A stretch of DNA of 10,883 bases from Candidatus Omnitrophota bacterium (lineage in GTDB: Bacteria > Omnitrophota > Gorgyraeia > Duberdicusellales > 4484-171): contig JAMWDA010000044.1 in the NCBI GenBank assembly GCA_023818995.1, positions 1-10,883 of the forward strand, read 5' to 3'. Positions 1 through 10,764 of the stretch are shown here, piece by piece. The notes beneath the pieces are model-generated. The model saw nothing but the letters and a program-made list of their open reading frames with translations, did not search any database and was not told the origin of the DNA. The position numbers were made by a program, and so were the translations under genes. The first letter of the stretch is position 1, and each line of letters begins with the position of its first letter.

Positions 1-860
1 TATGTCTGGCCTAAAAAAGCCGGCTCTAAAAATCTTATCATCTGGCGGTGAAGATAAGGGCCTAAAAGAATGGCCAAAAATATTACAATTGAGATCCCCC
101 AAAACCATTGCCTTAAAAAGAAGGCTAAAGCTATGAATACCGCTGAAACCACTACACCATAGAAAATATTCATTGCCAGATACTGCCTGGCAAGTTTAAT
201 ATCCATTAAGCGATATTTGATGATGGCGTAGGCTACTAAAGATAGAGAGATTAAAATTGGAATGAAACCCAATGGGTAAGACTCAATACCGTAATTGACG
301 AGAAAATCGAAGGAAGCAAAGGTATAAATGATTAATCCTACAAACAAATATTTTATTTGATTACCTTTTATGCCCTTCCACTCTATTTGTCTACCAGCTA
401 AAAATAAAGTAGATAGACAATGAATGGCGATAATTGTTAAGTAGGTAAGATATATTGGGTGAAGATAACCGGCCTTAGGATAATATCCCCAGAAATAAGT
501 GTAATAGTTATTGATATAAGCTTTGCTTGACCATAAAATAATTAGGAAAATAAAAGCAATCGCATAATAGAAATAAACCCACCTTTTGCTTTTATCTAAA
601 TAGGAAATATAAAAATGAAAAAATGAGGCGGGTATAAAAATAATTCCTGAATAACCAATTTTGACAAGTATATCTGCTAATGATTCATTTTTTATATTGA
701 ATAATATAAACCAACTAAATTGCCACCAAAAGGTAGTTAAACTATTCAACATAAAAACGGATCTAACAGAAAATTTTTCTTTACTTTTAAATAATACTAT
801 TGCACCCAAAGAAAAGAAAGAAAATGCACTTAATAAAGGAGGAATTGAGTAAGGACTCAT
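1..860 (-). CDS. Membrane sensor, probable histidine kinase N-terminal 7TM region (3' end cut by window edge)
   Basis: An open frame runs from ATG at 860 to the window edge, giving 286 residues without a stop. It is almost wholly membrane-embedded, with hydrophobic stretches near residues 9-24, 41-56, 66-87, 93-110, 134-155, 170-188, 196-214, 231-249 and 252-268. The segment around 183-221 (DFL, NYGI, YPLG, then AYAIIKYRLMDI) is typical of the seven-TM sensor region of membrane histidine kinases. Two further helices follow, ending FLEPAF, as in kinases of this type before the cytoplasmic part. The catalytic HisKA/HATPase region, or a GGDEF or other output, would lie beyond base 1 and cannot be seen. 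An SD-like AGAGG (868-872) sits 7 bases before the ATG. The gene starts 12 bases after the response regulator stop at 873, so the two are probably co-transcribed and form a signalling pair. The sensor assignment is firm; the kinase identity is inferred from the N-terminal region. Confidence 0.72.
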   Translation of the reverse strand, partial: MSPYSIPPLLSAFSFFSLGAIVLFKSKEKFSVRSVFMLNSLTTFWWQFSWFILFNIKNESLADILVKIGYSGIIFIPASFFHFYISYLDKSKRWVYFYYAIAFIFLIILWSSKAYINNYYTYFWGYYPKAGYLHPIYLTYLTIIAIHCLSTLFLAGRQIEWKGIKGNQIKYLFVGLIIYTFASFDFLVNYGIESYPLGFIPILISLSLVAYAIIKYRLMDIKLARQYLAMNIFYGVVVSAVFIALAFFLRQWFWGISIVIFLAILLGPYLHRQMIRFLEPAFLGQT

Positions 861-872
861 TTGGTATCCTCT

Positions 873-1748
873 TTAGAATTTAGTAATTTTCTGCTCATCT
901 TCACAAATAGAGAAAGCTATTTCACGAATGAAATTTGGTATTACAGTTAAAATGCCGGTTCTGGTGTCAGCGAAAGTTAATCTCTGCCAACCTTCTCCTA
1001 AAAATGCTCCTGTCTTCTTATTATAATAACGGAATACAAGAACAAAACTACACTGCTTAATTTCTCTTGTAGTCATTCTAATTTCAACTACATCGTACAG
1101 CGTTGTCTCTTGAACAAAACGATGATAGAGACTGTGAGTAATCATTTTTATATGCTTATTCTTCTGCATCTCTTCCTCGAAATTTGGATGTATCGTCAAA
1201 ATAGATTCTCTTATCTCCCCTTGCCAAGTTATGTAGGTTGTAAAATAAGTATTACCCATAAGATTGGTATCTTTAAGGAGAACTGTCCTTTCTATTGAAA
1301 AATATTTTTTAGGCAATTTGATTGGTATCTTTTCTATTTCCTTTTCTTCTACCTTAAGTAACTTTGCCTCTCTACCTTCTAAACAATTTTTCACTGTTTC
1401 TAAAAAAGTATTCGTCTCAAAAGGCTTAAGCACAAAATTACTTATTCCCAGAGAAACACTTTCTTTTGGCACATCATCATCCGCATATCCTGTAATAACC
1501 ATAAATTCACTTTTTGGGCTTCCTTGTTTATTTTGATAATCCTTTATACTTTTAATAGTTTCTATACCATTAAACTCAGGCATTCTACTATCCACTATTA
1601 TTAAATCGAAATTATCTTTCTTGGCTATTTCAATAGCCTTTAAACTATTATCTACAGGAGTGACATCGTAGCCCTCCCTTTTTAATAAATTTTCTAAACT
1701 CTTTAAAATTTGTTTATCATCATCTACTACTAAAATTTTCTTTGACAT
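873..1748 (-). CDS. Response regulator with C-terminal hot-dog thioesterase-like domain
   Basis: The protein has 291 residues. The N-terminal half (about 2-125) is a complete receiver: acidic pair D9/D10, phosphoacceptor D53 (LIIVDSRMP), T86 (VITG) and K108 (FVLKPF). A linker rich in E and K (about 126-145) leads to a domain (about 147-282) that is neither DNA-binding nor a known cyclase. It carries DTNLMGN at 160-166, then WQGEIRE at 175-181, and later FVLVFRYY and GEGWQRL. This pattern matches my knowledge of hot-dog thioesterases of the 4HBT superfamily, closest to enediyne-type enzymes (CalE7/DynE7), which carry a TNLVGN...RWQGRCRE motif. The Asn and Arg considered important there appear to be present (N162 or N166, R180). 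Whether it hydrolyses an acyl thioester or only binds an acyl ligand is unknown. ATG 1748 is chosen over GTG 1757 because a GGGGGTG ribosome site lies 6 bases before it. The membrane sensor gene follows after 12 bases. Confidence 0.85.
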   Translation of the reverse strand: MSKKILVVDDDKQILKSLENLLKREGYDVTPVDNSLKAIEIAKKDNFDLIIVDSRMPEFNGIETIKSIKDYQNKQGSPKSEFMVITGYADDDVPKESVSLGISNFVLKPFETNTFLETVKNCLEGREAKLLKVEEKEIEKIPIKLPKKYFSIERTVLLKDTNLMGNTYFTTYITWQGEIRESILTIHPNFEEEMQKNKHIKMITHSLYHRFVQETTLYDVVEIRMTTREIKQCSFVLVFRYYNKKTGAFLGEGWQRLTFADTRTGILTVIPNFIREIAFSICEDEQKITKF

Positions 1749-1754
1749 CTCTCC

Positions 1755-1761
1755 CACCCCC
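1755..1761 (-). promoter_or_regulatory. Ribosome binding site deciding the start of the response regulator-thioesterase gene
   Basis: The minus strand reads GGGGGTG six bases before ATG 1748. It can pair with the anti-Shine-Dalgarno core using one G-U pair. The in-frame GTG at 1757 lies inside this site, so it is unlikely to be the true start. Confidence 0.55.
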
Positions 1762-1779
1762 TTAAAAACTCTGCTTTCT

Positions 1780-1817
1780 CCTGGATTATTCAGGCATCCT
1801 CTTTTACGTCGAAAGGA
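1780..1817 (-). other. Two small tandem hairpins in the leader of the response regulator gene
   Basis: Read on the minus strand, bases 1817-1797 can fold as a 6-bp stem (TCCTTT against AAGAGGA, with one G-U pair) around a 9-base loop. Two bases later, 1794-1780 folds as CCTGAA against TTCAGG-like sequence, a 6-bp stem with one G-U pair and a 3-base loop. They lie between the smc stop and the ribosome site in a 169-base spacer. Neither stem is followed by a run of T, so they do not look like terminators. I recognise no riboswitch class. The stems are short and could be chance. Confidence 0.25.
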
Positions 1818-1917
1818 AAGGGATTAAAGTGATTTTCTTAGCCTCCCCATCTACTTAAAATAACCTCTTACCCTCTTGGCAATTTTATTAAACAAAATAT
1901 CTACCTAATAATTAAAT

Positions 1918-4900
1918 CTATCCTACAACCTCTTTTTCAGCAAATTTAACCGATACTAATTGGGAGATACCCTTTTCTTGCATCGTAACACCATAGAGAA
2001 TATCTGCTCTACTCATTGTTCTTTTGTTGTGGGTAATTACGATAAACTGGGCGGTAGGAGAGAATTCTTTTAAAAGCTGATTAAATCTTTCCACATTAGC
2101 TTCATCCAAAGGTGCATCTATCTCATCAAGAACGCATAATGGTGATGGTTTAAATTTAAATATAGAAAATATCAATGCTATTGCTGTTAAAGCTTTCTCC
2201 CCTCCGGAAAGAAGAGAAACATTTTGAAGTTTTTTGCCCGGTGGCTGAACCTCTATCTCTACTCCTGATTCTAAAACATTGTCTTTATCCAAAAGTATAA
2301 GTTCAGCTCTTCCTCCACCAAAAAGTAATCTAAAATATTTCTTGAATTCTTCCTCTATCTTACTAAACGCCTCTAAAAAAGTTTCTTTAGCACTCTTATT
2401 TATTTTATATATTGCTTTTTTAAGGCTATCTTGGGAAACAATTAAGTCTTCTTTTTGAGAAATAAGAAACTTATATCGGCTATTCAACTCTTCAAACTCT
2501 TCAATCGCTACAAGATTAACTTCTCCTAAAGAATCTAATTTTTTCTTAAGATTATCTCTCTCTTTCTCTATATCTTCGTAGGGTTCTTGGGGTAAATTCT
2601 CATTGGCTTCAATAAATTCTACATTATACACTTGCTTTAAATAATCCTTTATCTTCGCTCTTTCAAAATCTAATTTTTGTGTCTCTAACTTACTATTGTA
2701 TATATCTGTCATTAAATTTTCTAATTCTTTCTTCATAATCTCTATTGTTTTAGATAAATCTGACCCCTCTCTTTCAAGAAAACTTATCCTTTCTTCCATA
2801 ATTTTCTTATCCTCGGTGAAGGAGTTCGTTCGTTCTTTCTCACTATTTATACTTTCATCTAAAGACTCTATTTCCTCTTCTAATGCCTTTTTACGACTTA
2901 AATTAATTTCCTTTTCTTTATCTTTAGAAGATATCATATCTAAAATGCTTTTTCTTTCTTCTTCTAAAATGGCTATCTTAGATAAAATTGATTCTTTATG
3001 TTCTCTCAAAGATTTAACATCTGCCTCCTTTTTTGCAATCTCTATCTCTAATCTCTTTACCTCTTCGGAAGAGAACACTAATTTACTCTGTGCTTTTTCT
3101 AAATTATTCTTGGCTAACTCTAATTTGCCTACTATCTCTTGTAACTCTTTCTCTTGATTAGCTTTTTTATTTTCATTATCTTCTATCTCCCCTAAACAAT
3201 CCTGAAGTTCTTTCTCTGTCAATATTGCTTCTTCTTTTAATCGTTCTATCTCTTCGTTAACAATTTGTTCCTCCTGTTTTTTTTCTACCAAAACTCTATC
3301 CTTTTCTGTAATAGTAGTATCTTCTTTACCTACTTCTTCGCTTAATTTTAATTTATTTTCTTTACTTTCTTTAATTTTAATTTGAAGATTATTTATTTCT
3401 ACATTTAGTTCTTCTATCCTTCTAATTAGCTCCTCTTCGGGAAGAGATATTATTTTCGCCTCTACCTCCGCTCTATAGATTAATTTGTCATCGAGCTTAT
3501 CCTCTTTAAAATCTATATCTTTTAAAGATGCAATCAGTTTGTTTATCTGAGTTGGCTTTTGATCGAAAATAACTGTAACTTTTTTCGTTAAAGGAAATTC
3601 TTCGTATTTAATCTTTAAATCTTTAAGAAACTCTAAATACGAATTTAATTCTACCAAGGTTTTCTCTCTATCCAAAAGTTGCTTATTTAAATCTTCTATA
3701 AGGAGTTCTAAATCTTTTAACCTGTTACTTAGTTCCCCCCTATTTTTATTCAAGCAAGAAAGTTCATCGTTAATTTTAGTTATTTCTTCCTTGAGAAGGG
3801 ATAAAACTTTTTGTCGCTGATTTAAGAACTCATCTATCCTTCCTTTATCTAAAAGCAATCTTTTTTTCCTTGCCAAAAGATTGTTCAAATGTGTAACTAT
3901 GCTAACTTGTTTATTATTTATTTTTATTTTTTCTTCTTCCAAATGTAAAATATTATTTTTTTCTAACTCAATAGTTCTTTTAGCTTCTTCAATTAAGGTG
4001 ATATTTTTGTTCTTTAACTCATTACAGCTAATAATCCCTTCTTCTAATTCCCTTATATTATTATCTGCAGAAACGATAAATTTATTTTCCTCTTCTACCT
4101 TTTGATTATAAGAATTAACCCTCCCTCTCATATCTTGAAGAGAGTTATCCATATCTATTAAATAACTATCTATCTCCTCTATTCTCTTACGATTTATCCT
4201 TATATGGTTGATATAATTTTCTATGCGGGAGTTTATAGTAATAATTTGAGAATTAGTGTCTTCTAACTTCTTTCTCGTGATATTAATCTCATCATAAATA
4301 GATTGTCGTTTTTTAATCGCCTCAGCTATCTTACATTCCTTATCTTCCTCCTCTTTCTTAAGAAGATTAATTTTATCAAGCACACTATTAATATTATTCT
4401 GTAATTCCTGCATTTTTATAGATGCTATTTTTTTTTCTACAGAAACCAGCTCTTCCTGTAACTTTTTATACTTATTGGCTTTCTCCACCTGTCTTTCTAA
4501 ATAACTTATTTGACGTTTAACTTCGGAGATAATATCATCAACTCTAAGAAGATTCTCTTCTGTTTCTTGAAGTTTCTTTAATGTCTCTTTTTTCTTCTCT
4601 TTATATTTTATTATTCCCGAAGCTTCATCAAAAATTAATCTTTTCTCTTCAGGCTTATAACTAAGAAGCGCTTCTACTTTCCCCTGTTCTATAAAAGAGT
4701 AAGAGTATTCTCCTATCCCCGTTCCCATAAATAGCTCCTCTATATCTTTCAATCTAACAGCATTTTTGTTTATTAAATACTCGCTATCTCCTGAACGATA
4801 CAATCTTCTGGTTATCTCCACCTCCTTATAATCTATAGGTAAGTAGTTATCCTCGTTAGAAAAAGTAAGCGTTACCTCTGTATAGTTAAGAGGGGGATGG

Positions 4901-5112
4901 TTTTCTGTTCCATTAAAGATGACATCCTCCATCTTTGAGCCTCGTAAAGATTTAGGACTCTGTTCTCCTAAAGCCCATTTTATAGCATCAAAAATATTGC
5001 TCTTACCACAACCATTTGGACCGACTACCACGGTTATTCCCGGATCAAATGTAAGAATTGTTTTCTGAGGGAAAGATTTAAACCCAAAGAGTTCTAAAGA
5101 TTTCAAATACAT
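1918..5112 (-). CDS. smc: Chromosome segregation/condensation ATPase SMC with a reduced hinge
   Basis: SMC forms ring-shaped dimers that, with ScpA and ScpB, organise and help segregate the chromosome; its ABC-type head is built from both ends of the chain. The N-terminal head half has Walker A GPNGCGKS (31-38), then ALGEQSPKSLRG, and the Q-loop SFIEQGKVE (Q143). The C-terminal half has the signature LSGGEK (968-973), Walker B CVLDEIDAPLD (D996, E997) and the H-loop ITHNK (H1028). Two long charged coiled coils lie between (about 170-490 and 560-855), close to normal arm length. The protein is 1064 residues, against about 1150-1200 usual, and the shortfall falls in the centre: no canonical hinge is visible, only a non-coiled segment of about 60 residues. 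There is no CxxC zinc hook, so it is not Rad50/SbcC. It starts 18 bases after the etfA stop without a clear ribosome site, suggesting co-transcription. No scpA or scpB is in the window. Confidence 0.95.
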   Translation of the reverse strand: MYLKSLELFGFKSFPQKTILTFDPGITVVVGPNGCGKSNIFDAIKWALGEQSPKSLRGSKMEDVIFNGTENHPPLNYTEVTLTFSNEDNYLPIDYKEVEITRRLYRSGDSEYLINKNAVRLKDIEELFMGTGIGEYSYSFIEQGKVEALLSYKPEEKRLIFDEASGIIKYKEKKKETLKKLQETEENLLRVDDIISEVKRQISYLERQVEKANKYKKLQEELVSVEKKIASIKMQELQNNINSVLDKINLLKKEEEDKECKIAEAIKKRQSIYDEINITRKKLEDTNSQIITINSRIENYINHIRINRKRIEEIDSYLIDMDNSLQDMRGRVNSYNQKVEEENKFIVSADNNIRELEEGIISCNELKNKNITLIEEAKRTIELEKNNILHLEEEKIKINNKQVSIVTHLNNLLARKKRLLLDKGRIDEFLNQRQKVLSLLKEEITKINDELSCLNKNRGELSNRLKDLELLIEDLNKQLLDREKTLVELNSYLEFLKDLKIKYEEFPLTKKVTVIFDQKPTQINKLIASLKDIDFKEDKLDDKLIYRAEVEAKIISLPEEELIRRIEELNVEINNLQIKIKESKENKLKLSEEVGKEDTTITEKDRVLVEKKQEEQIVNEEIERLKEEAILTEKELQDCLGEIEDNENKKANQEKELQEIVGKLELAKNNLEKAQSKLVFSSEEVKRLEIEIAKKEADVKSLREHKESILSKIAILEEERKSILDMISSKDKEKEINLSRKKALEEEIESLDESINSEKERTNSFTEDKKIMEERISFLEREGSDLSKTIEIMKKELENLMTDIYNSKLETQKLDFERAKIKDYLKQVYNVEFIEANENLPQEPYEDIEKERDNLKKKLDSLGEVNLVAIEEFEELNSRYKFLISQKEDLIVSQDSLKKAIYKINKSAKETFLEAFSKIEEEFKKYFRLLFGGGRAELILLDKDNVLESGVEIEVQPPGKKLQNVSLLSGGEKALTAIALIFSIFKFKPSPLCVLDEIDAPLDEANVERFNQLLKEFSPTAQFIVITHNKRTMSRADILYGVTMQEKGISQLVSVKFAEKEVVG
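3433..3630 (-). other. Segment encoding the miniature SMC hinge region
   Basis: These codons cover SMC residues about 495-560. They interrupt the coiled coil with a stretch containing YEEFP, KKVTVIFDQKP and, later, YRAEVEAKIISLP. Prolines and alternating hydrophobic residues suggest short beta strands and helices rather than coil. The YEEF portion resembles the YEGF commonly seen just before the SMC hinge. The usual hinge landmarks that follow (a G-x-x-x-D-L-I stretch, a YE-x-A-I-E-x-A-L-G stretch, IVVE, and conserved glycines) are absent. Confidence 0.6.
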
Positions 5113-5130
5113 TTCTAAATAATAAGAATA

Positions 5131-6342
5131 CTAACTTGTAGGAGAGTTTAATTTCTTCAACTCTTTAATAAGGGCTGGTATAACTTTAAATAAATCTCCC
5201 ACTATCCCAAAATTAGCTACTTTAAAAATAGGAGCTTGTGGATCCTTGTTTATAGCTACAATTATCTTGGAAGATTGCATTCCTACCAGATGTTGAATTT
5301 GCCCGGAGATACCACAGGCAATATAAATCTTGGGAGCCACTGTTCTACCTGTCTGACCTACCTGATGAGAATACGCTATCCAACCGCTATCTACTGCCGC
5401 TCGGGAAGCTCCTACACCTGCATTCAATACAGATGCTAATTCTCTAATCAATTCAAAATTCTTACCTTCTCCTAATCCTCTTCCTCCTGAAACAATTATA
5501 TCGGCATCAGCTAAGTTTACCGTGTAAACTTCCTCTTTAAAAAATTCAATAAATTTTACCCTTTTGTCAATAAATTGCCCATCTAACTCTTCTATTATAA
5601 TCTCGCCTTTACGAGATTCATCTAAAGCTAACTCTTTCATTACTTTGTGTCTTACCGTAGCCATCTGCGGTCGATAATCAGTAGTAACTATCTGAGCCAT
5701 AATGTTCCCTCCGAAGGCAGGGCGAGTTTGAATAAGCAGCCTCTTTTCTTTATCTATATCAAGCCCTGTACAATCAGCAGTAAGTCCTGTTCTTATATTA
5801 ACCGCTATCCTTGAAACTAACGACCTACCCATAGTGGTAGCACCAGCAATAAATATTTCTGGTTTATACTTACGAATTAGATGGGAAATAACATTAGCGT
5901 AGTTTTCGGCAATAAAATTTTTTAGTTCAGGTTTATCTACTACAATTACCTTATCCGCTCCCTTATAGATAAGAGTATTCGCCTTATCTTTTATATTATA
6001 ACCCAAAAATACACCTACAACCTTACAATCTAACTGGGTAACTAAATCTTTAGCTTTACCTAAGAGTTCAAAGGAAACACCAGCAATATTTTGATCCTCC
6101 TGTTCAATAAAAACCCAAACATCCTTATACTCTCCTGTTTCTAATTTTACTATCTTGGGTTTAGAAATAACTATCGCCTCAAACTTACAAGCATCTTTAC
6201 AAGCTCCACAGAGATTACATTTTTCTAAATCAATTACTGCTATCTTATTAACTAAACTGATCGCAGAAAATGGACAAACCTTAATACACAAACCACAGCC
6301 TATGCACTTTTTCTTTATAACTTTTATCAATTCTTGGCTCAT
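5131..6342 (-). CDS. etfA: Electron transfer flavoprotein alpha subunit with N-terminal 2x[4Fe-4S] ferredoxin domain
   Basis: The alpha subunit binds FAD and, with EtfB, passes electrons between flavin dehydrogenases and other carriers in the cytoplasm. Residues 1-60 form a bacterial-type ferredoxin with two full CxxCxxCxxxC motifs (C13, C16, C19, C23 and C42, C45, C48, C52). The ETF N-terminal domain follows (about 73-240), then the FAD domain (about 275-400) with SGGRGLGEG (285-293), GASRAAVDSGW (311-321) and QVGQTGRTVAP. The C terminus KDPQAPIF...ADFGIVGD-like (here VANFGIVGD) is characteristic. Ferredoxin-fused EtfA occurs in anaerobes, for example CarE of the Acetobacterium caffeyl-CoA reductase, where the ETF takes part in flavin-based electron bifurcation. 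The fusion suggests direct exchange with ferredoxin or another iron-sulfur partner. Its ATG overlaps the etfB stop by 4 bases (ATGA), indicating translational coupling. No dehydrogenase partner is encoded nearby. Confidence 0.95.
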   Translation of the reverse strand: MSQELIKVIKKKCIGCGLCIKVCPFSAISLVNKIAVIDLEKCNLCGACKDACKFEAIVISKPKIVKLETGEYKDVWVFIEQEDQNIAGVSFELLGKAKDLVTQLDCKVVGVFLGYNIKDKANTLIYKGADKVIVVDKPELKNFIAENYANVISHLIRKYKPEIFIAGATTMGRSLVSRIAVNIRTGLTADCTGLDIDKEKRLLIQTRPAFGGNIMAQIVTTDYRPQMATVRHKVMKELALDESRKGEIIIEELDGQFIDKRVKFIEFFKEEVYTVNLADADIIVSGGRGLGEGKNFELIRELASVLNAGVGASRAAVDSGWIAYSHQVGQTGRTVAPKIYIACGISGQIQHLVGMQSSKIIVAINKDPQAPIFKVANFGIVGDLFKVIPALIKELKKLNSPTS

Positions 6343-7127
6343 AACAAATATTTCTTTAACTCTACCACTAATTTACCAGCTACCTCTTGGGGTTCACCTT
6401 GAAAAATTACCCCCCTTTGGCGAGGAGGAGGAGTAAATATTTTTACCACTTGTGTAGGAGAACCCTTAAGACCTACCTCATCTTCTTTTAATTCCAAATC
6501 TTTAATTGTCCATATGGGAATATGTGCTGATTTAGCTTTCAGTTTACCTCTTAAAGAAGGCATCCTTGGTTCATTTATCTCTTTTACCACGGTAAGTAAA
6601 GCGGGTAACTGTAATTCTAAAACTTCGTAACCATCCTCCAATAATCTCTCTACTCTTATAATTCTTTTTTCTAAAGATACCTCCTCTATTTTCTTAACAT
6701 AGGTTGCCTGAGGAAAATTAAGGTGTGCTGCTATTCCCGGACCAACCTGTGCGGTGTCTCCATCGGAAGCTTGTTTACCACAAATAACTAAATCTACTTC
6801 ACCAATTTTTTCTATGGCTTTAGCTAGAACTAAACTTGTTGCCCATGTATCTGAACCAGCAAAAGCTTTATCGCAAAGATGTATCCCCTCATCTACACCC
6901 AAAGAGAGAGCTTCTCTTAAAGCACTATCCGCTTGGGGTGGTCCCATAGTTAAAACTATCGTTCTATATGAATATTTCTCTTTTAGTCTTACCCCTTCCT
7001 CTATAGCATACATATCAAAAGGATTAATAATAGAAGCCACTCCTTCACGAATAAGAGTGTTAGTCTCTGGATTTATCTTTACCTCAGTAGTTTCCGGAAC
7101 CTGTTTAATACAAATTACTACCTTCAT
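6339..7127 (-). CDS. etfB: Electron transfer flavoprotein beta subunit
   Basis: This is the partner of EtfA; the beta subunit carries AMP in ordinary ETFs or a second, bifurcating FAD in the FixA-like and clostridial groups. Its 262 residues match family length. Visible landmarks are MKVVICIKQVPET (1-13), NPFDMYAIEEGVRLKE (35-50), GKQASDGDTAQVGP (117-130), the loop that holds the beta-subunit nucleotide, and RMPSLRGKLKAK (188-199) with SPTQVVKIFTPP (223-234) near the C terminus. The DGDTAQVGP loop together with the ferredoxin-fused alpha subunit is compatible with a bifurcating ETF, but motif reading alone cannot prove it. The gene starts 3 bases after the receiver-only response regulator stop and overlaps etfA by 4 bases. 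It therefore sits inside the operon begun by the promoter at 7522-7550. Confidence 0.95.
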   Translation of the reverse strand: MKVVICIKQVPETTEVKINPETNTLIREGVASIINPFDMYAIEEGVRLKEKYSYRTIVLTMGPPQADSALREALSLGVDEGIHLCDKAFAGSDTWATSLVLAKAIEKIGEVDLVICGKQASDGDTAQVGPGIAAHLNFPQATYVKKIEEVSLEKRIIRVERLLEDGYEVLELQLPALLTVVKEINEPRMPSLRGKLKAKSAHIPIWTIKDLELKEDEVGLKGSPTQVVKIFTPPPRQRGVIFQGEPQEVAGKLVVELKKYLL

Positions 7128-7130
7128 CTT

Positions 7131-7511
7131 TCAGCCATTTATTAACTCGTTAACTGTTTTTAACAATTCCTGCGAGGTAACGGGTTTAGCAAGAATATGG
7201 TGTTTACCGCGAATTTTATCTGATACTCCCTCTTCTTTTTTTACCAAAAGCCCAGTTAAAAACATTATAGGAATATTTACCGTTGTTAGATCTTGAGAAA
7301 GAGCAGCGGCAATTTCCCCTCCTTTCATATCCGGCATAACTATGTCAAGGATAATCAGGTCTGGTTTATAATTATTAGCTATCTCTATTGCATCTTTACC
7401 TTTATTTGCTATAAGCACATCATAATTTGCCCTTCTCAAGATGTTACCTATATAGAGCAACATATCTTCCTCATCATCCACCACTAATATCTTTTTAGGA
7501 AACTTATCCAT
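7131..7511 (-). CDS. Receiver-only (CheY-like) response regulator
   Basis: This 126-residue protein is a single receiver domain without an output domain. It has the acidic pair D12/D13 (ILVVDDEED), phosphoacceptor D56 (LIILDIVMPDMKGGE), the switch threonine T86 (FLTG) and the conserved lysine K109 (LAKPV). The receiver is therefore fully equipped for phosphorylation by a histidine kinase. Proteins of this type signal by binding other proteins or serve as intermediates in phosphorelays; the partner here is not evident. It is the first gene after the promoter at 7522-7550 and is followed after 3 bases by etfB, so its production is likely tied to the ETF and SMC genes. No ribosome site precedes the ATG, and the predicted transcript start lies only a few bases upstream, which suggests leaderless translation. 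CheY itself is a less likely identity, since no chemotaxis genes are seen. Confidence 0.93.
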   Translation of the reverse strand: MDKFPKKILVVDDEEDMLLYIGNILRRANYDVLIANKGKDAIEIANNYKPDLIILDIVMPDMKGGEIAAALSQDLTTVNIPIMFLTGLLVKKEEGVSDKIRGKHHILAKPVTSQELLKTVNELING

Positions 7512-7521
7512 AATATTTTTT

Positions 7522-7550
7522 AAATTATCATTGATTTTCCTTTATGTCAA
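7522..7550 (-). promoter_or_regulatory. Sigma-70-type promoter for the response regulator-etfBA-smc operon
   Basis: On the minus strand a perfect -35 TTGACA (7550-7545) is separated by 17 bases from TAATTT (7527-7522), preceded by TG at the extended -10 position. It lies in the only gap (58 bases) between rph and the receiver gene. Transcription would begin near 7514-7516, about 3-6 bases before the ATG at 7511, leaving no room for a ribosome site. Confidence 0.65.
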
Positions 7551-7569
7551 GTAGGATAAAACTCTCTGT

Positions 7570-8289
7570 TTACAAATTAATTATATCTTTTAGGACATTC
7601 CTTTCTATATCTATTATCTCCTCTATGCCTTTCTGTGCAAGAGAAAGGAGTCTATCTAAATCCTGATGAGAAAAAGAACCCCTTTCTGCAGTGCCTTGGA
7701 TTTCTACAAACTCTCCGCTACCTTTCATAACTACATTTATATCTACTGTAGCTTGGGAATCTTCAGCATAACTTAAATCCAAAAAATAGTTCCCTTTCAC
7801 TATCCCCGCACTTACCGCACCCAAAAAATCCGTTACGGGTAAAGAGGCTATCTCCCCTGAACGATACAACTTATCCAAGCATTCCACTAAGGAAATAAAA
7901 CCTCCTATTATAGAGGCGCTTCTCGTTCCTCCATCAGCCTGGATAACATCACAATCTATCCAAATAGTTCTTTCTCCTAATTCTTTAAGATTAACCACAC
8001 TGCGTAAAGACCGACCAACTAATCTTTGAATCTCCATGCTTCTCCCCGATATCCTATCTCTTAAAATTCTCACTTGGGTAGAACGGGGTAACATACCATA
8101 TTCTGAGGTTACCCAACCCTCACCTTTCCCTTTAAGAAAAACAGGAACATTTTTATCCACGGTAGCTGTCACAATAACTTTTGTATTACCCATTTCAATC
8201 AGACAGGAACCTTCGGCATACTTTATGTAACCTCTCTCAATTTTAATTTTACGTAACTGATCTACTTTTCTGAGATTATCTCTCTCCAT
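7570..8289 (-). CDS. rph: Ribonuclease PH (tRNA nucleotidyltransferase)
   Basis: RNase PH is a phosphate-dependent 3'-5' exoribonuclease that trims tRNA precursors and other RNAs; it acts as a hexameric ring in the cytoplasm. The 239 residues match the usual length. Family signatures are [14 protein letters not shown] (58-71), [15 protein letters not shown] (82-96), [14 protein letters not shown] (112-125), then [10 protein letters not shown] and VEIQGTAE. D177 and D183 align with the conserved active-site aspartates. ATG 8289 is chosen because AAAGGAG (8295-8301) sits 5 bases before it; an in-frame TTG at 8304 would place that site inside the gene. It follows the fumarase beta stop by 16 bases and is the last gene of the PilZ-queE-fumarase run. 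I see no hairpin terminator after its stop, so some read-through into the next operon is possible. Confidence 0.97.
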
Positions 8290-8294
8290 CACTT

Positions 8295-8301
8295 CTCCTT
8301 T
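8295..8301 (-). promoter_or_regulatory. Ribosome binding site deciding the rph start
   Basis: AAAGGAG on the minus strand lies 5 bases before ATG 8289. It rules against the longer frame that would begin at TTG 8304. Confidence 0.7.
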
Positions 8302-8305
8302 CAAT

Positions 8306-8836
8306 TTAGATACGTTTATAAATATCTTCTCCTTTTGTATCTATACCAACAATTAAAGGGAAATCACACACCTCTAATTGGAAAATAGCTTCTGCTCCTA
8401 AATCGGGGAAAGCAACTTTTCTATAGTTTTTAACAAACTGCCAAAGATAGGCACCACAGCCAGCATAAGTAAGAAAATAAACACCTCTATATTTTTTTAA
8501 TAGTTCCCTTACCCAAGAAGAGCGATTACCTTTGCCAATAAATCCCTTTACCCCTACCATAAGAAGAGGCTGTAAATAATCATCCATACGAGAAGAGGTA
8601 GTTGGTCCGCAAGAACCTAACTTATCTCCCTTAAAGTTTGGTCCGCAATAGTATATAATTTGTCTATAAAGATTAACCGGTAAAGTTTTTTTAGCTATAA
8701 TAAATTCTTTAAGCCTCTTATTAGCCTGATCCCGTGCAGTAAAAATTACTCCTTCAAGAAGAACCTCTTCTCCTGCTTTTAATTTGCTAATTTCTTCCTC
8801 ATCTATAGGAGTTTTTAGTTTAATTATCTTACCCAT
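8306..8836 (-). CDS. Class I fumarate hydratase (or tartrate dehydratase-type) beta subunit
   Basis: This is the smaller subunit of the iron-sulfur hydro-lyases that interconvert fumarate and L-malate, or dehydrate tartrate; it corresponds to the C-terminal domain of single-chain class I fumarases. Its 176 residues show ARDQANKR (34-41), GPTTSSRMD (77-85), GKG (101-103), GCGAY (126-130) and DLGAEAI followed by [13 protein letters not shown] (145-166), all typical of the swivelling beta domain. It begins 12 bases after the alpha-subunit stop, with no clear ribosome site, and rph follows after 16 bases. Class I enzymes are oxygen-sensitive, which suits an anaerobe. Fumarase is favoured over tartrate dehydratase because no tartrate genes are nearby, but sequence reading alone cannot separate the two substrates. 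Confidence 0.93.
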
Positions 8837-8848
8837 TGAATTTTTAAT

Positions 8849-9670
8849 TTAAACTCTTATAGTGGCGGTAGCACTCCTTAACGAATGGCAACTAATATTT
8901 ACACCTACAGGTAAACCAGCGATATGTGCAGGGTAAAGCTTAATCTTTACACATAGAGCGGTAAAATTCCCTCCCAGCCCCATTGGTCCTATGCCTAAAG
9001 AATTTATTCTCTTTAACAAGTCTTTCTCCCATCTGGTTATATCTTTATCCCTACCATACTTATCCACTCTTTCCAATAATGCTTTCTTAGCTAAAAGAAG
9101 AGCGTAATCCGCTGTTCCTCCTATGCCTACACCAATAAAAAAGGGTGGACAAGCGGAAGGCCCTGCCTTCCTAACCGCATCCACAATGAATTCTGAAATT
9201 TCTTCCCGAGAAACTGTGGGATTAAACATCTTTAAAGCTGACTTATTTTCTGAGCCAAAACCTTTAGGGAAAATAGTAATCCTCAATCCATACCTATTAG
9301 TAAATTGGATATGAAAAATATTAGGATTAAATTTAGGTTTATAAAAATTAAACGGCGTTACTGTAGATGCTCGAAAACCCTCTCTTCTATAAGCTTTTTC
9401 CAAAGCTTTACTTACTCTCTTTATAAGAATATAGTCAACTTTAACATCCTTACCGCATTCCAAAAAAACCAAAGGTAAACCAGTATCTTGACATAAAGCT
9501 ATTCTGTTTTTATAGGCACATAAGGCATTATCTAAAATAACTTTCAAAATCTTCTTTGGCTGAATTTTTCTCTCTTCTAAATAAGCTTTATTAATAAGAT
9601 TTAGAACATCCCTCCTTAAAATTGTATTTGCTCTCACAGCTAATTCGTAGACAAATTTTTCTATATCCAT
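8849..9670 (-). CDS. Class I fumarate hydratase (or tartrate dehydratase-type) alpha subunit
   Basis: This is the cluster-binding catalytic subunit of a two-subunit [4Fe-4S] hydro-lyase, probably fumarate hydratase of a partial TCA cycle. The 273 residues match the family. Three cysteines sit in the expected contexts for cluster ligands: C60 in LCQDTGLP, C174 in GPSACPPFFIGVGIGG, and C261 in ISCHSLRSA. The glycine-rich stretch GIGPMGLGGNFTA (226-238) and the PAHIAGLPVGVN block (247-258) are also characteristic. It follows queE by 11 bases and precedes the beta subunit by 12 bases, so both subunits come from one transcript. No convincing ribosome site precedes the ATG, as for other internal genes of this run, which suggests coupling to upstream translation. 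As with the beta subunit, tartrate dehydratase remains an alternative. Confidence 0.94.
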   Translation of the reverse strand: MDIEKFVYELAVRANTILRRDVLNLINKAYLEERKIQPKKILKVILDNALCAYKNRIALCQDTGLPLVFLECGKDVKVDYILIKRVSKALEKAYRREGFRASTVTPFNFYKPKFNPNIFHIQFTNRYGLRITIFPKGFGSENKSALKMFNPTVSREEISEFIVDAVRKAGPSACPPFFIGVGIGGTADYALLLAKKALLERVDKYGRDKDITRWEKDLLKRINSLGIGPMGLGGNFTALCVKIKLYPAHIAGLPVGVNISCHSLRSATATIRV

Positions 9671-9681
9671 AATTAAAAAAT

Positions 9682-10350
9682 TTATCTTACACCCAAAATT
9701 TTGTGCATTTGGGGAATGGCTCTTATGTTAGGTAGGTAATCCTTACCTAAATCTAAAAAGTAACCTAACCTTTCCTTCAATGCTTCCTCAAGGGGGTGTT
9801 CGGGTTGAAGGACAAAAATAATCTCTGGAGAGATTGACCTTACTATGCTAAAAGCTTCAACCAAATCCTCTTCCTTAGTAGAAGGAGTAATAACTACCTT
9901 AATAAAAGTTTCTCTTTTTAGTGCTTCTTCTAAGAAATATCTATGTTGGATAAATAAATCTTGCGAACCACACGAAGAGGGAAGTTTAAAATCCATAGCA
10001 ATAATATCTACCCAAGGAATAATCTTTTTTAAATTTTGGTAAAGGACGCCATTGGTCTCAAGATAAATTAGTTTGTTATCATACTTAAATTGGGGTAATA
10101 ACTCCCTTAAAAAATCTACCTGTAAGAGTGGTTCTCCTCCGGTAATAGATATAGAATGATAATCTTGATAGGTATAAATATTTTTCTTTACTTCTTCTAC
10201 ACTCATCTCTTTAAAATAGACTTGTCTTGTATCACAGTAAGCACAATTAAGATTACAACCATAAAATCGCACAAACACTTGGCTTATCCCAAAATAAGGT
10301 CCCTCCCCTTGAATACTCTTAAATATCTCTGATATTCTACCTTTATACAT
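9682..10350 (-). CDS. queE: Radical SAM 7-carboxy-7-deazaguanine synthase (QueE)
   Basis: QueE converts 6-carboxytetrahydropterin to 7-carboxy-7-deazaguanine, a step toward preQ0 and queuosine in tRNA. The protein starts with the family-typical ISEIFKSIQGEGPYFG (6-21). It has the radical-SAM cluster motif CNLNCAYCD (C32, C36, C39), the SAM-binding GGEPLLQ (71-77), LETNG (97-101) and DFKLPSS (120-126). It ends PQMHKILGVR, similar to many QueE proteins. At 222 residues it is near usual length. No other queuosine gene (queC, queD, queF) is in the window, so the name rests on the protein itself; another small radical-SAM activating enzyme is the main alternative. It lies 19 bases after the PilZ gene and 11 before fumarase alpha. 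The ribosome site is weak (GGTGA). Confidence 0.85.
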   Translation of the reverse strand: MYKGRISEIFKSIQGEGPYFGISQVFVRFYGCNLNCAYCDTRQVYFKEMSVEEVKKNIYTYQDYHSISITGGEPLLQVDFLRELLPQFKYDNKLIYLETNGVLYQNLKKIIPWVDIIAMDFKLPSSCGSQDLFIQHRYFLEEALKRETFIKVVITPSTKEEDLVEAFSIVRSISPEIIFVLQPEHPLEEALKERLGYFLDLGKDYLPNIRAIPQMHKILGVR

Positions 10351-10369
10351 TATTAATCACCAAAGAATT

Positions 10370-10753
10370 CTAACTTGCGCAAACCTCTTTACCTAGAGAA
10401 CAAAGATAGTGAACTATTCTTTCTCTATCCTTATCATTTATCTCAATAAACTCTATTCCTAATCTATTTCTGTTAATATTTAAGGGAGACTTTGCCTGCC
10501 AAACAATCTTACCTTTGGTTTCTAACGGATTTTTTTCATCGGGTAGATAAATTTTTAAATCTAACTCTTTACCAATCTCTATCCGATCGTAAACTAATAA
10601 ACAAACTCCTCTGGTGCTTATATTCTCAGTCACAGCTTTACCTTCCCTAACCTCATCTCCTCTAAGTGTATAATCTACATTTATACTCACGTTTACACGA
10701 GGATACTTCCATTTCTCCTGCTCAAGATATTTCAATCTTTCCATCCCTAACAT
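10370..10753 (-). CDS. PilZ domain protein with incomplete c-di-GMP motif
   Basis: This 127-residue protein is essentially one PilZ domain, a beta-barrel that usually binds cyclic di-GMP and changes the activity of a partner protein. After a short charged lead (1-13) comes KWKYPRVNVSINVDY. Then follow NISTRG (44-49), matching D/N-x-S-x-x-G, and a C-terminal part with GKELDLKIYLP, GKIVWQ and NRLGIEFIEI typical of the fold. In the usual RxxxR motif the second Arg (R19) is present, but the first position is W15, so ligand binding may be weak or lost. The start is well set by AGGAGG five bases before the ATG. It is the first gene of the run continuing with queE. No flagellar, cellulose or pilus gene is nearby to suggest a target. 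Confidence 0.85.
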   Translation of the reverse strand: MLGMERLKYLEQEKWKYPRVNVSINVDYTLRGDEVREGKAVTENISTRGVCLLVYDRIEIGKELDLKIYLPDEKNPLETKGKIVWQAKSPLNINRNRLGIEFIEINDKDRERIVHYLCSLGKEVCAS

Positions 10754-10758
10754 TTTAA

Positions 10759-10764
10759 CCTCCT
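10759..10764 (-). promoter_or_regulatory. Strong ribosome binding site of the PilZ gene
   Basis: A perfect AGGAGG on the minus strand lies 5 bases before ATG 10753. It fixes the first of two possible ATG codons (the other is at 10744). It is the best ribosome site in the window. Confidence 0.75.

Follow-up and report, generated by a model that had tools for sequence, protein, structure and literature searches.

The described systems closest to the locus analysed here are the enediyne thioesterases CalE7, DynE7, SgcE10 and EspE7, the Ralstonia PhcBSRQ system, the YbgC/FadM acyl-CoA thioesterases and the XrtA/PEP-CTERM kinase PrsK. For CalE7, hydrolytic release of the CalE8 product has been described (PMC3107222, in excerpt). 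In Ralstonia, the products of PhcB are 3-hydroxy fatty acid methyl esters, which the kinase PhcS senses, and the Phc operon also encodes receiver proteins (PMC10653808 and PMC11960443, both in excerpt).

The window, i.e., the whole stretch of DNA that was analysed, is one whole contig of 10,883 bp from a Candidatus Omnitrophota genome (1.58 Mb, 91.8% complete). Its open reading frames, translations and Pfam domains place a receiver-thioesterase gene at 873..1748 on the minus strand (291 aa, from the ATG at 1748 to the stop codon at 873-875). The phosphoreceiver (REC) domain takes up residues 1-123 (1380..1748, minus strand), with Response_reg PF00072 matched above its Pfam cut-off at residues 5-119 (E 2e-24), and the hot-dog thioesterase domain of CalE7/DynE7 type lies at 876..1319 on the same strand, with 4HBT_2 PF13279 matched at residues 156-276 (32.4 bits against a cut-off of 25.5). 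The original prediction described a complete, phosphorylatable receiver followed by a domain with the motifs DTNLMGN, WQGEIRE and GEGWQRL; all three motifs are in the translation, as are D53, T86 and K108 of the receiver.

A HisKA_7TM sensor gene (1..860, minus strand) starts at 860, so 12 bases (861-872) separate it from the stop codon of the enzyme gene. Pfam matches PF16927 at residues 10-221 with 46.7 bits (cut-off 28.6), and because the gene runs off the contig, the 7TM sensor part at the N-terminus of the kinase is all that is visible in the window. A membrane sensor at this distance had been foreseen, and it proves to be of histidine-kinase type. The further suggestion that it is the receiver's natural input is incomplete. 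Sensors and acyl-chain enzymes are associated across the phylum, and a second species carries both another enzyme and another sensor at this site, so a role as receptor for the enzyme's product is at least equally likely.

On the other side of the enzyme gene, 1911..10763 carries SMC, ETF genes, a stand-alone REC, RNase PH and others (names from Pfam). Within this flank, Pfam identifies an ETF alpha with 4Fe-4S motifs plus an ETF beta at 5131-7127 and a stand-alone PilZ protein at 10370-10753; PilZ is the second regulatory domain found fused to these enzymes. Contamination of the genome bin was considered and rejected, as a same-genus genome has counterparts of two neighbouring genes at 96% and 98% identity. 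Elsewhere in the genome, contig C79 carries the receiver most like the window's, which by eye belongs to an ordinary array of REC-kinase and HD-domain genes without such a REC-enzyme fusion.

A search with residues 135-291 against 5.8 billion proteins gave the 57 proteins listed here (window protein included), and the same domain pair does occur in other genomes: 47 combine REC with the hot-dog domain, three combine PilZ with it, and seven are without a complete N-terminal domain (one of these, P0043, resembles a truncated REC fusion). Homologues that bear organism names are Candidatus Omnitrophica/Omnitrophota. Among the 29 positions checked, the 47 REC-bearing homologues invariably keep D53, T86 and K108 of the receiver and T161, G165, N166, T167, Y168, W175, G177, E178, R180, E181, P188, T204, H209 and S234 of the hot-dog part, and N162 is kept in 46 of them. 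This conservation puts the receiver residues and hot-dog motifs beyond chance.

The predicted hot-dog fold of the CalE7/DynE7 branch is borne out by both sequence and structure. The best six PDB entries by sequence are SgcE10, the thioesterases 5vpj and 9ccr, CalE7 and DynE7 (twice), and the same six entries come out best by structure when the hot-dog domain is modelled alone, which was done because the receiver filled the match list in a whole-model comparison. N162 (where Asp is usual) and R180 align with residues of CalE7, SgcE10 and DynE7, and R180 also aligns with the residue altered in the EspE7 mutant R35A (9ccr); these Asn and Arg residues presumably have a catalytic role in CalE7-type enzymes. 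The window protein is therefore like the enediyne thioesterases in fold, in best matches, in the Asn/Arg signature and in a WQG..RE motif, but differs from them in being fused to a receiver and linked to a 7TM sensor gene. An enediyne pathway was not found to go with it: the genome (91.8% complete) has four ketosynthase (KS) matches in frames of 284-425 aa, and no iterative enediyne PKS or other large PKS was found there, so that such a pathway was rejected. The same four frames are too short for a REC-KS fusion, which was also rejected for this genome.

YbgC and FadM share the superfamily (4HBT_2) and fold of the hot-dog domain, but the window protein scores far under the NCBIfam cut-offs for these families (30.4 bits of 141.35 for TIGR02799, 26.1 of 68.7 for TIGR00051). 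In a tree of 67 hot-dog domains, which includes 11 from fetched loci and omits P0043, seven changes between REC-fused, PilZ-fused and stand-alone states are needed against a shuffled mean of 17.6, so gain, loss or exchange of regulatory domains has taken place on more than one occasion. The three PilZ fusions group as a single clade. The tree program warned of long branches among the stand-alone rows, and a FastTree version was also made. In plasmids, a methyltransferase and a stand-alone thioesterase used as queries found no more than distant matches (24-37% identity among the matches listed).

The main find is the genomic context. A thioesterase match (E ≤ 1e-8) is present in 15 of 384 Omnitrophota genomes, the window's own included, and in 13 of the 15, again with the window, a 7TM sensor gene lies downstream on the same strand within about 6 kb; the 12 such calls in the 14 other genomes come from our own profile, which has L037 and L038 among its seeds (L, C, G and P labels are our own handles). 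HisKA_7TM is above its Pfam cut-off in 10 of the 13 (window, L030, L031, L032, L034 and L038-L042). The partners in L035, L036 and L037 have 222-227 aa, score 21.4-26.7 bits (cut-off 28.6) and are without a kinase domain, as is the 326-aa partner in L031; HATPase_c is present in the sensors of the relatives L034, L039 and L040 and absent from the short partners of L031 and L035-L037. The two loci without a visible 7TM gene are L029, where REC and REC-PilZ-methyltransferase genes are followed by the contig end, and L033. Short kinase-less 7TM proteins below the HisKA_7TM cut-off were noted directly 3' of the thioesterase at L035:8292-8957, L036:7779-8459, L037:10076-10756 and L038:3937-4626.

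The linkage is often tight. In 10 loci the 7TM domain starts at most 250 bp from the thioesterase; these include L026, a named Omnitrophota contig with the same order as the window (REC-thioesterase, then 7TM), a 9-base gap and a HisKA_7TM+GAF neighbour. The gene order is KS-ACP-thioesterase-7TM in L031, L034 and L040 (the L034 KS bears a receiver) and ACP-thioesterase-7TM in L039, and the window is without a KS or ACP gene. PrsK matches the GAF and kinase core region of the neighbours in L034 and L040, but with 43-61 bits against a cut-off of 300 and in the GAF/kinase part only, so identity with the exosortase kinase was rejected.

A broader profile, A3, matched 141 of 384 genomes at E ≤ 1e-14, and linkage was counted at 30 of its loci (the 19 best and 11 lower-scoring). 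A 7TM gene lies within 1.5 kb at 14 of the 19 best loci, 11 of which are the profile's own seeds (the window among them), and at five of the eight non-seed loci. The 11 lower-scoring loci, which are generic YbgC-like loci of the same phylum, have a 7TM gene within 1.5 kb in no case and carry Asp at the Asn position; among the 19 best loci, five have Asp there and one has neither residue. At L204, L205, L207 and L208, hot-dog genes occur as tandem pairs that have REC upstream and an ICMT-like methyltransferase behind them, and three of these four loci have a 7TM sensor within the stretch.

The association was also counted from the sensor's side. We took the best HisKA_7TM match per genome from the first 40 genomes of the match table, skipping the window's own genome and G028 (its locus is a thioesterase locus), and as controls the best HisKA kinase from each of the 40 genomes that head the HisKA table, skipping G068 (its kinase is itself a 7TM kinase). 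Loci extended up to 5 kb either side as contigs allowed, some genomes are common to both sets, and the sets are unmatched. At least one of ACP, KS, HMG-CoA reductase (HMGR), thioesterase, methyltransferase and ICMT lies within 5 kb at 20 of 40 sensor loci against one of 40 controls (Fisher 1.1e-6), and none of the six at the other half of the sensor loci. The counts by type, sensor loci against controls, are 9/0 for methyltransferase, 7/0 for KS, 7/1 for ACP, 2/0 for HMGR and 1/0 each for thioesterase and ICMT, with p below 0.05 for methyltransferase (0.002) and KS (0.012) only; the sole thioesterase (L121) is a weak match 2.8 kb off and may be a generic one. Since the enzyme profiles were built in this analysis from few seeds, and from neighbours first seen near thioesterases or sensors, this reverse test covers those families only: it shows that they are linked, not that others are absent.

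The thioesterase is one of several enzymes wired to regulators, as REC-thioesterase and PilZ-thioesterase fusions occur besides REC and PilZ fusions of other acyl or methyl-transfer enzymes. Pfam places REC-KS fusions in L030 and L034 and a REC-HMG-CoA reductase fusion in L030, where a receiver is joined to the reductase at L030:6855-8447 (PF00368, E 2.6e-85). With at least one domain placed by the profiles of this analysis, there are also a REC-PilZ-methyltransferase in L029, PilZ-methyltransferases in the window's own genome (contig C222), L130 and L186/L187, and a PilZ-HMGR in L103. One genome has six different sensors, several adjoining different acyl enzymes.

Some further loci deserve a record of their own. 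An HMG-CoA reductase lies between an ACP gene and a 7TM sensor at L188:866-1886 (contig C17 of the window's genome) and at L183:6466-7504 (genome G182); its coding sequence is split, over two frames in one of the species and over three in the second. A FeeM-like N-acyl amino acid synthase at L063:6556-7299 (31.5 bits, cut-off 27), with weak likeness to exosortase-associated acyltransferases, shares a contig with two ACP/7TM regions. In the window's own genome, proteins without a Pfam match lie directly 5' of 7TM sensors at L063:751-1800 and L062:3648-4442, and they are possible further signal enzymes.

The sensor tree follows the type of partner enzyme. Among its 90 sensor domains, 28 abut a labelled enzyme (27 after leaving out one near-duplicate), and the partner labels of the 27 require seven changes on the tree, against a shuffled mean of 13.7 and with none of 2000 shuffles as low; the thioesterase and methyltransferase labels by themselves require two changes (1/2000 shuffles as low). 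An IQ-TREE sensor tree, in which some rows have long branches, gives the same change counts, with thioesterase and methyltransferase partners clustered (0/500 shuffles as low for each) and HMGR (4/500) and ICMT (27/500) more weakly so. The window's sensor falls in a set of six (SH-aLRT 96), five of them thioesterase-linked. Co-inheritance of operons may partly contribute to this clustering by partner, yet L034, L039 and L040, which the hot-dog tree sets apart from the REC fusions, have sensors that group with the window's.

A second species of the same genus, G182, has a different enzyme and a different sensor at the same site. Its contig C132 matches the window flank at 1911-10763 with 93.5% identity over 8857 bp, and this collinear flank marks the edge of the exchanged block. 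The leader 5' of the enzyme gene (1749..1852, minus strand) is partly kept: together with the first REC codons it is 74% alike over 137 bp (window 1716-1852). Beyond the end of the SMC gene, G182 has a receiver fused to a methyltransferase-like part, followed by another HisKA_7TM sensor; the methyltransferase call comes from our own profile (E 2e-33), the best Pfam methyltransferase family scoring 26.8 bits of 27, below its cut-off. The two receivers are 43% identical, the best G182 match to the window's sensor is 34% identical, the best match to the G182 methyltransferase part in the window's genome is 32%, and neither search of the 384 genomes gave a match to the thioesterase in G182. Four further regions (ACP-HMGR-7TM, two with ACP and 7TM, and PilZ-methyltransferase) are collinear between the two species at 90-94%. 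This difference of enzyme and sensor is one case, and the far side of the site lies beyond both contigs.

Similarity between the two species resumes at the end of the 7TM domain, with 87% identity over 87 bp (window 150..236, minus strand), where a segment common to other sensor genes begins that is 86-87% identical to the paralogues on C222 and C17. Within the window's genome, the paralogous sensors on C102, C17 and C222 have divergent 7TM parts and are 86-89% alike in the DNA directly behind, i.e., about as similar as the two species are; a second group (C86a, C86b and C171) is 81-98% alike behind the 7TM part. Divergent 7TM parts before a shared segment suggest, from DNA comparison, that sensors recombine onto common kinase bodies. 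Contigs C17, C86, C102 and C171 of the window's genome and C132 of G182 end or begin just behind the 7TM domain, which is where near-identical kinase bodies would be expected to interrupt an assembly.

By description rather than by sequence, the layout of the window can be likened to that of Ralstonia PhcBSRQ (3-OH-PAME/3-OH-MAME), where the gene of an acyl-modifying enzyme, a sensor histidine kinase and REC proteins share an operon, as far as the excerpted sources go. The window differs in having a thioesterase in place of the methyltransferase, in an enzyme that itself bears the receiver and in a sensor of the HisKA_7TM family. A methyltransferase (own profile) holds the place of the thioesterase in G182, and nine of the 40 sensor loci have one of the same family; among 120 listed of 824 relatives of the L098 methyltransferase, two carry the JGI name "3-hydroxypalmitic acid methyl ester biosynthesis protein", which is the PhcB reaction.

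The reading that we prefer, with a probability of about 0.5, is that the gene encodes the phosphorylation-controlled terminal enzyme of an acyl-signal synthase/receptor cassette, with a CalE7-type acyl-thioesterase as output and the 7TM histidine kinase as sensor. An acyl chain would be built on ACP by KS/ACP genes or by the general fatty-acid system, and the hot-dog domain would cut it free, which would be the terminal, product-releasing step; in some clusters an ICMT-like or PhcB-like enzyme might then methylate the product. The adjoining 7TM kinase would sense this lipid product in the membrane, phosphorylate the receiver and so tune release, i.e., the receiver would close a feedback loop on signal synthesis. 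Both domains and folds, the conservation of phospho-site and active site, the recurrent enzyme-sensor linkage, the REC/PilZ fusions and the differing enzyme and sensor at one site are computed; from these we infer hydrolytic activity, substrate, diffusion of the product, its binding by the 7TM part, the direction of control and the signal itself.

The main rival is a non-signalling role in membrane lipid. A phospho-regulated housekeeping thioesterase, whose 7TM kinase responds to the state of the membrane or to an external cue and controls fatty-acid release for membrane or envelope lipid, would account equally well for the enzyme-sensor linkage and the phospho-site, and neighbours of ICMT, KS and HMGR type are likewise compatible with synthesis of envelope lipid. 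We nevertheless consider it less likely, because the sensor varies with the type of enzyme, both differ between two species with 93.5% identical flanks, and six different sensors in one genome, several by different acyl enzymes, are not obviously needed for housekeeping lipid.

Two other accounts are less probable again. It is improbable that the hot-dog domain has lost catalysis and serves the response regulator as an output that binds an acyl ligand or dimerises: Asn does replace the YbgC-type Asp, but by alignment the same Asn is present in CalE7, DynE7 and SgcE10, of which CalE7 is the one described (PMC3107222, in excerpt) as freeing its product by hydrolysis. The near-complete retention of N162 (46/47) and complete retention of W175, R180 and E181 (47/47) also speak against this, as does the different kind of enzyme in its place at the G182 site. 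Least probable of all is membership in a secondary-metabolite (polyene- or enediyne-like) pathway whose product the kinase does not sense, the genes being neighbours through a shared mobile island. Such a pathway would suit the closest structures, which are polyene-releasing thioesterases, and the sporadic distribution (15/384 genomes), but no large PKS was found in the window's genome, and enzyme and sensor are found together repeatedly, in several families and with enzymes of several types, the enzyme abutting a same-strand sensor in 10 loci.

More broadly, and tentatively enough that we would not bet on it at even odds, Omnitrophota may possess a family of exchangeable "make-and-sense" lipid-signal cassettes. 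Each would pair a terminal acyl enzyme, be it of the thioesterase, the PhcB-like methyltransferase, the ketosynthase or the HMG-CoA reductase type, with a matching 7TM sensor on a shared kinase body, and the enzyme would often be coupled to phosphorylation by REC or to c-di-GMP by PilZ. In the PMC literature we found no description of a receiver fused to a hot-dog thioesterase or of a ketoacyl synthase fused to a response regulator or PilZ. Judged by title, HisKA_7TM papers there concern archaeal or eukaryotic systems alone, and those on Omnitrophota quorum sensing hold nothing on such cassettes. A query for Omnitrophota with PhcB-type signalling or a receiver-thioesterase gave no Omnitroph mention among the matches listed.

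If the cassette reading is true, swapping an enzyme and its sensor together at a single site would amount to a pherotype switch for a lipid signal, of which we know no example. Biosynthetic enzymes as receiver outputs would let a kinase control the release of a small molecule directly, without transcription. As the enzyme and sensor genes are neighbours, expressing both in a laboratory host is a way to match ligand with receptor. Should the product be the ligand of the kinase, the cassettes would be candidate lipid-signal languages in a phylum that is large and for the most part uncultured.
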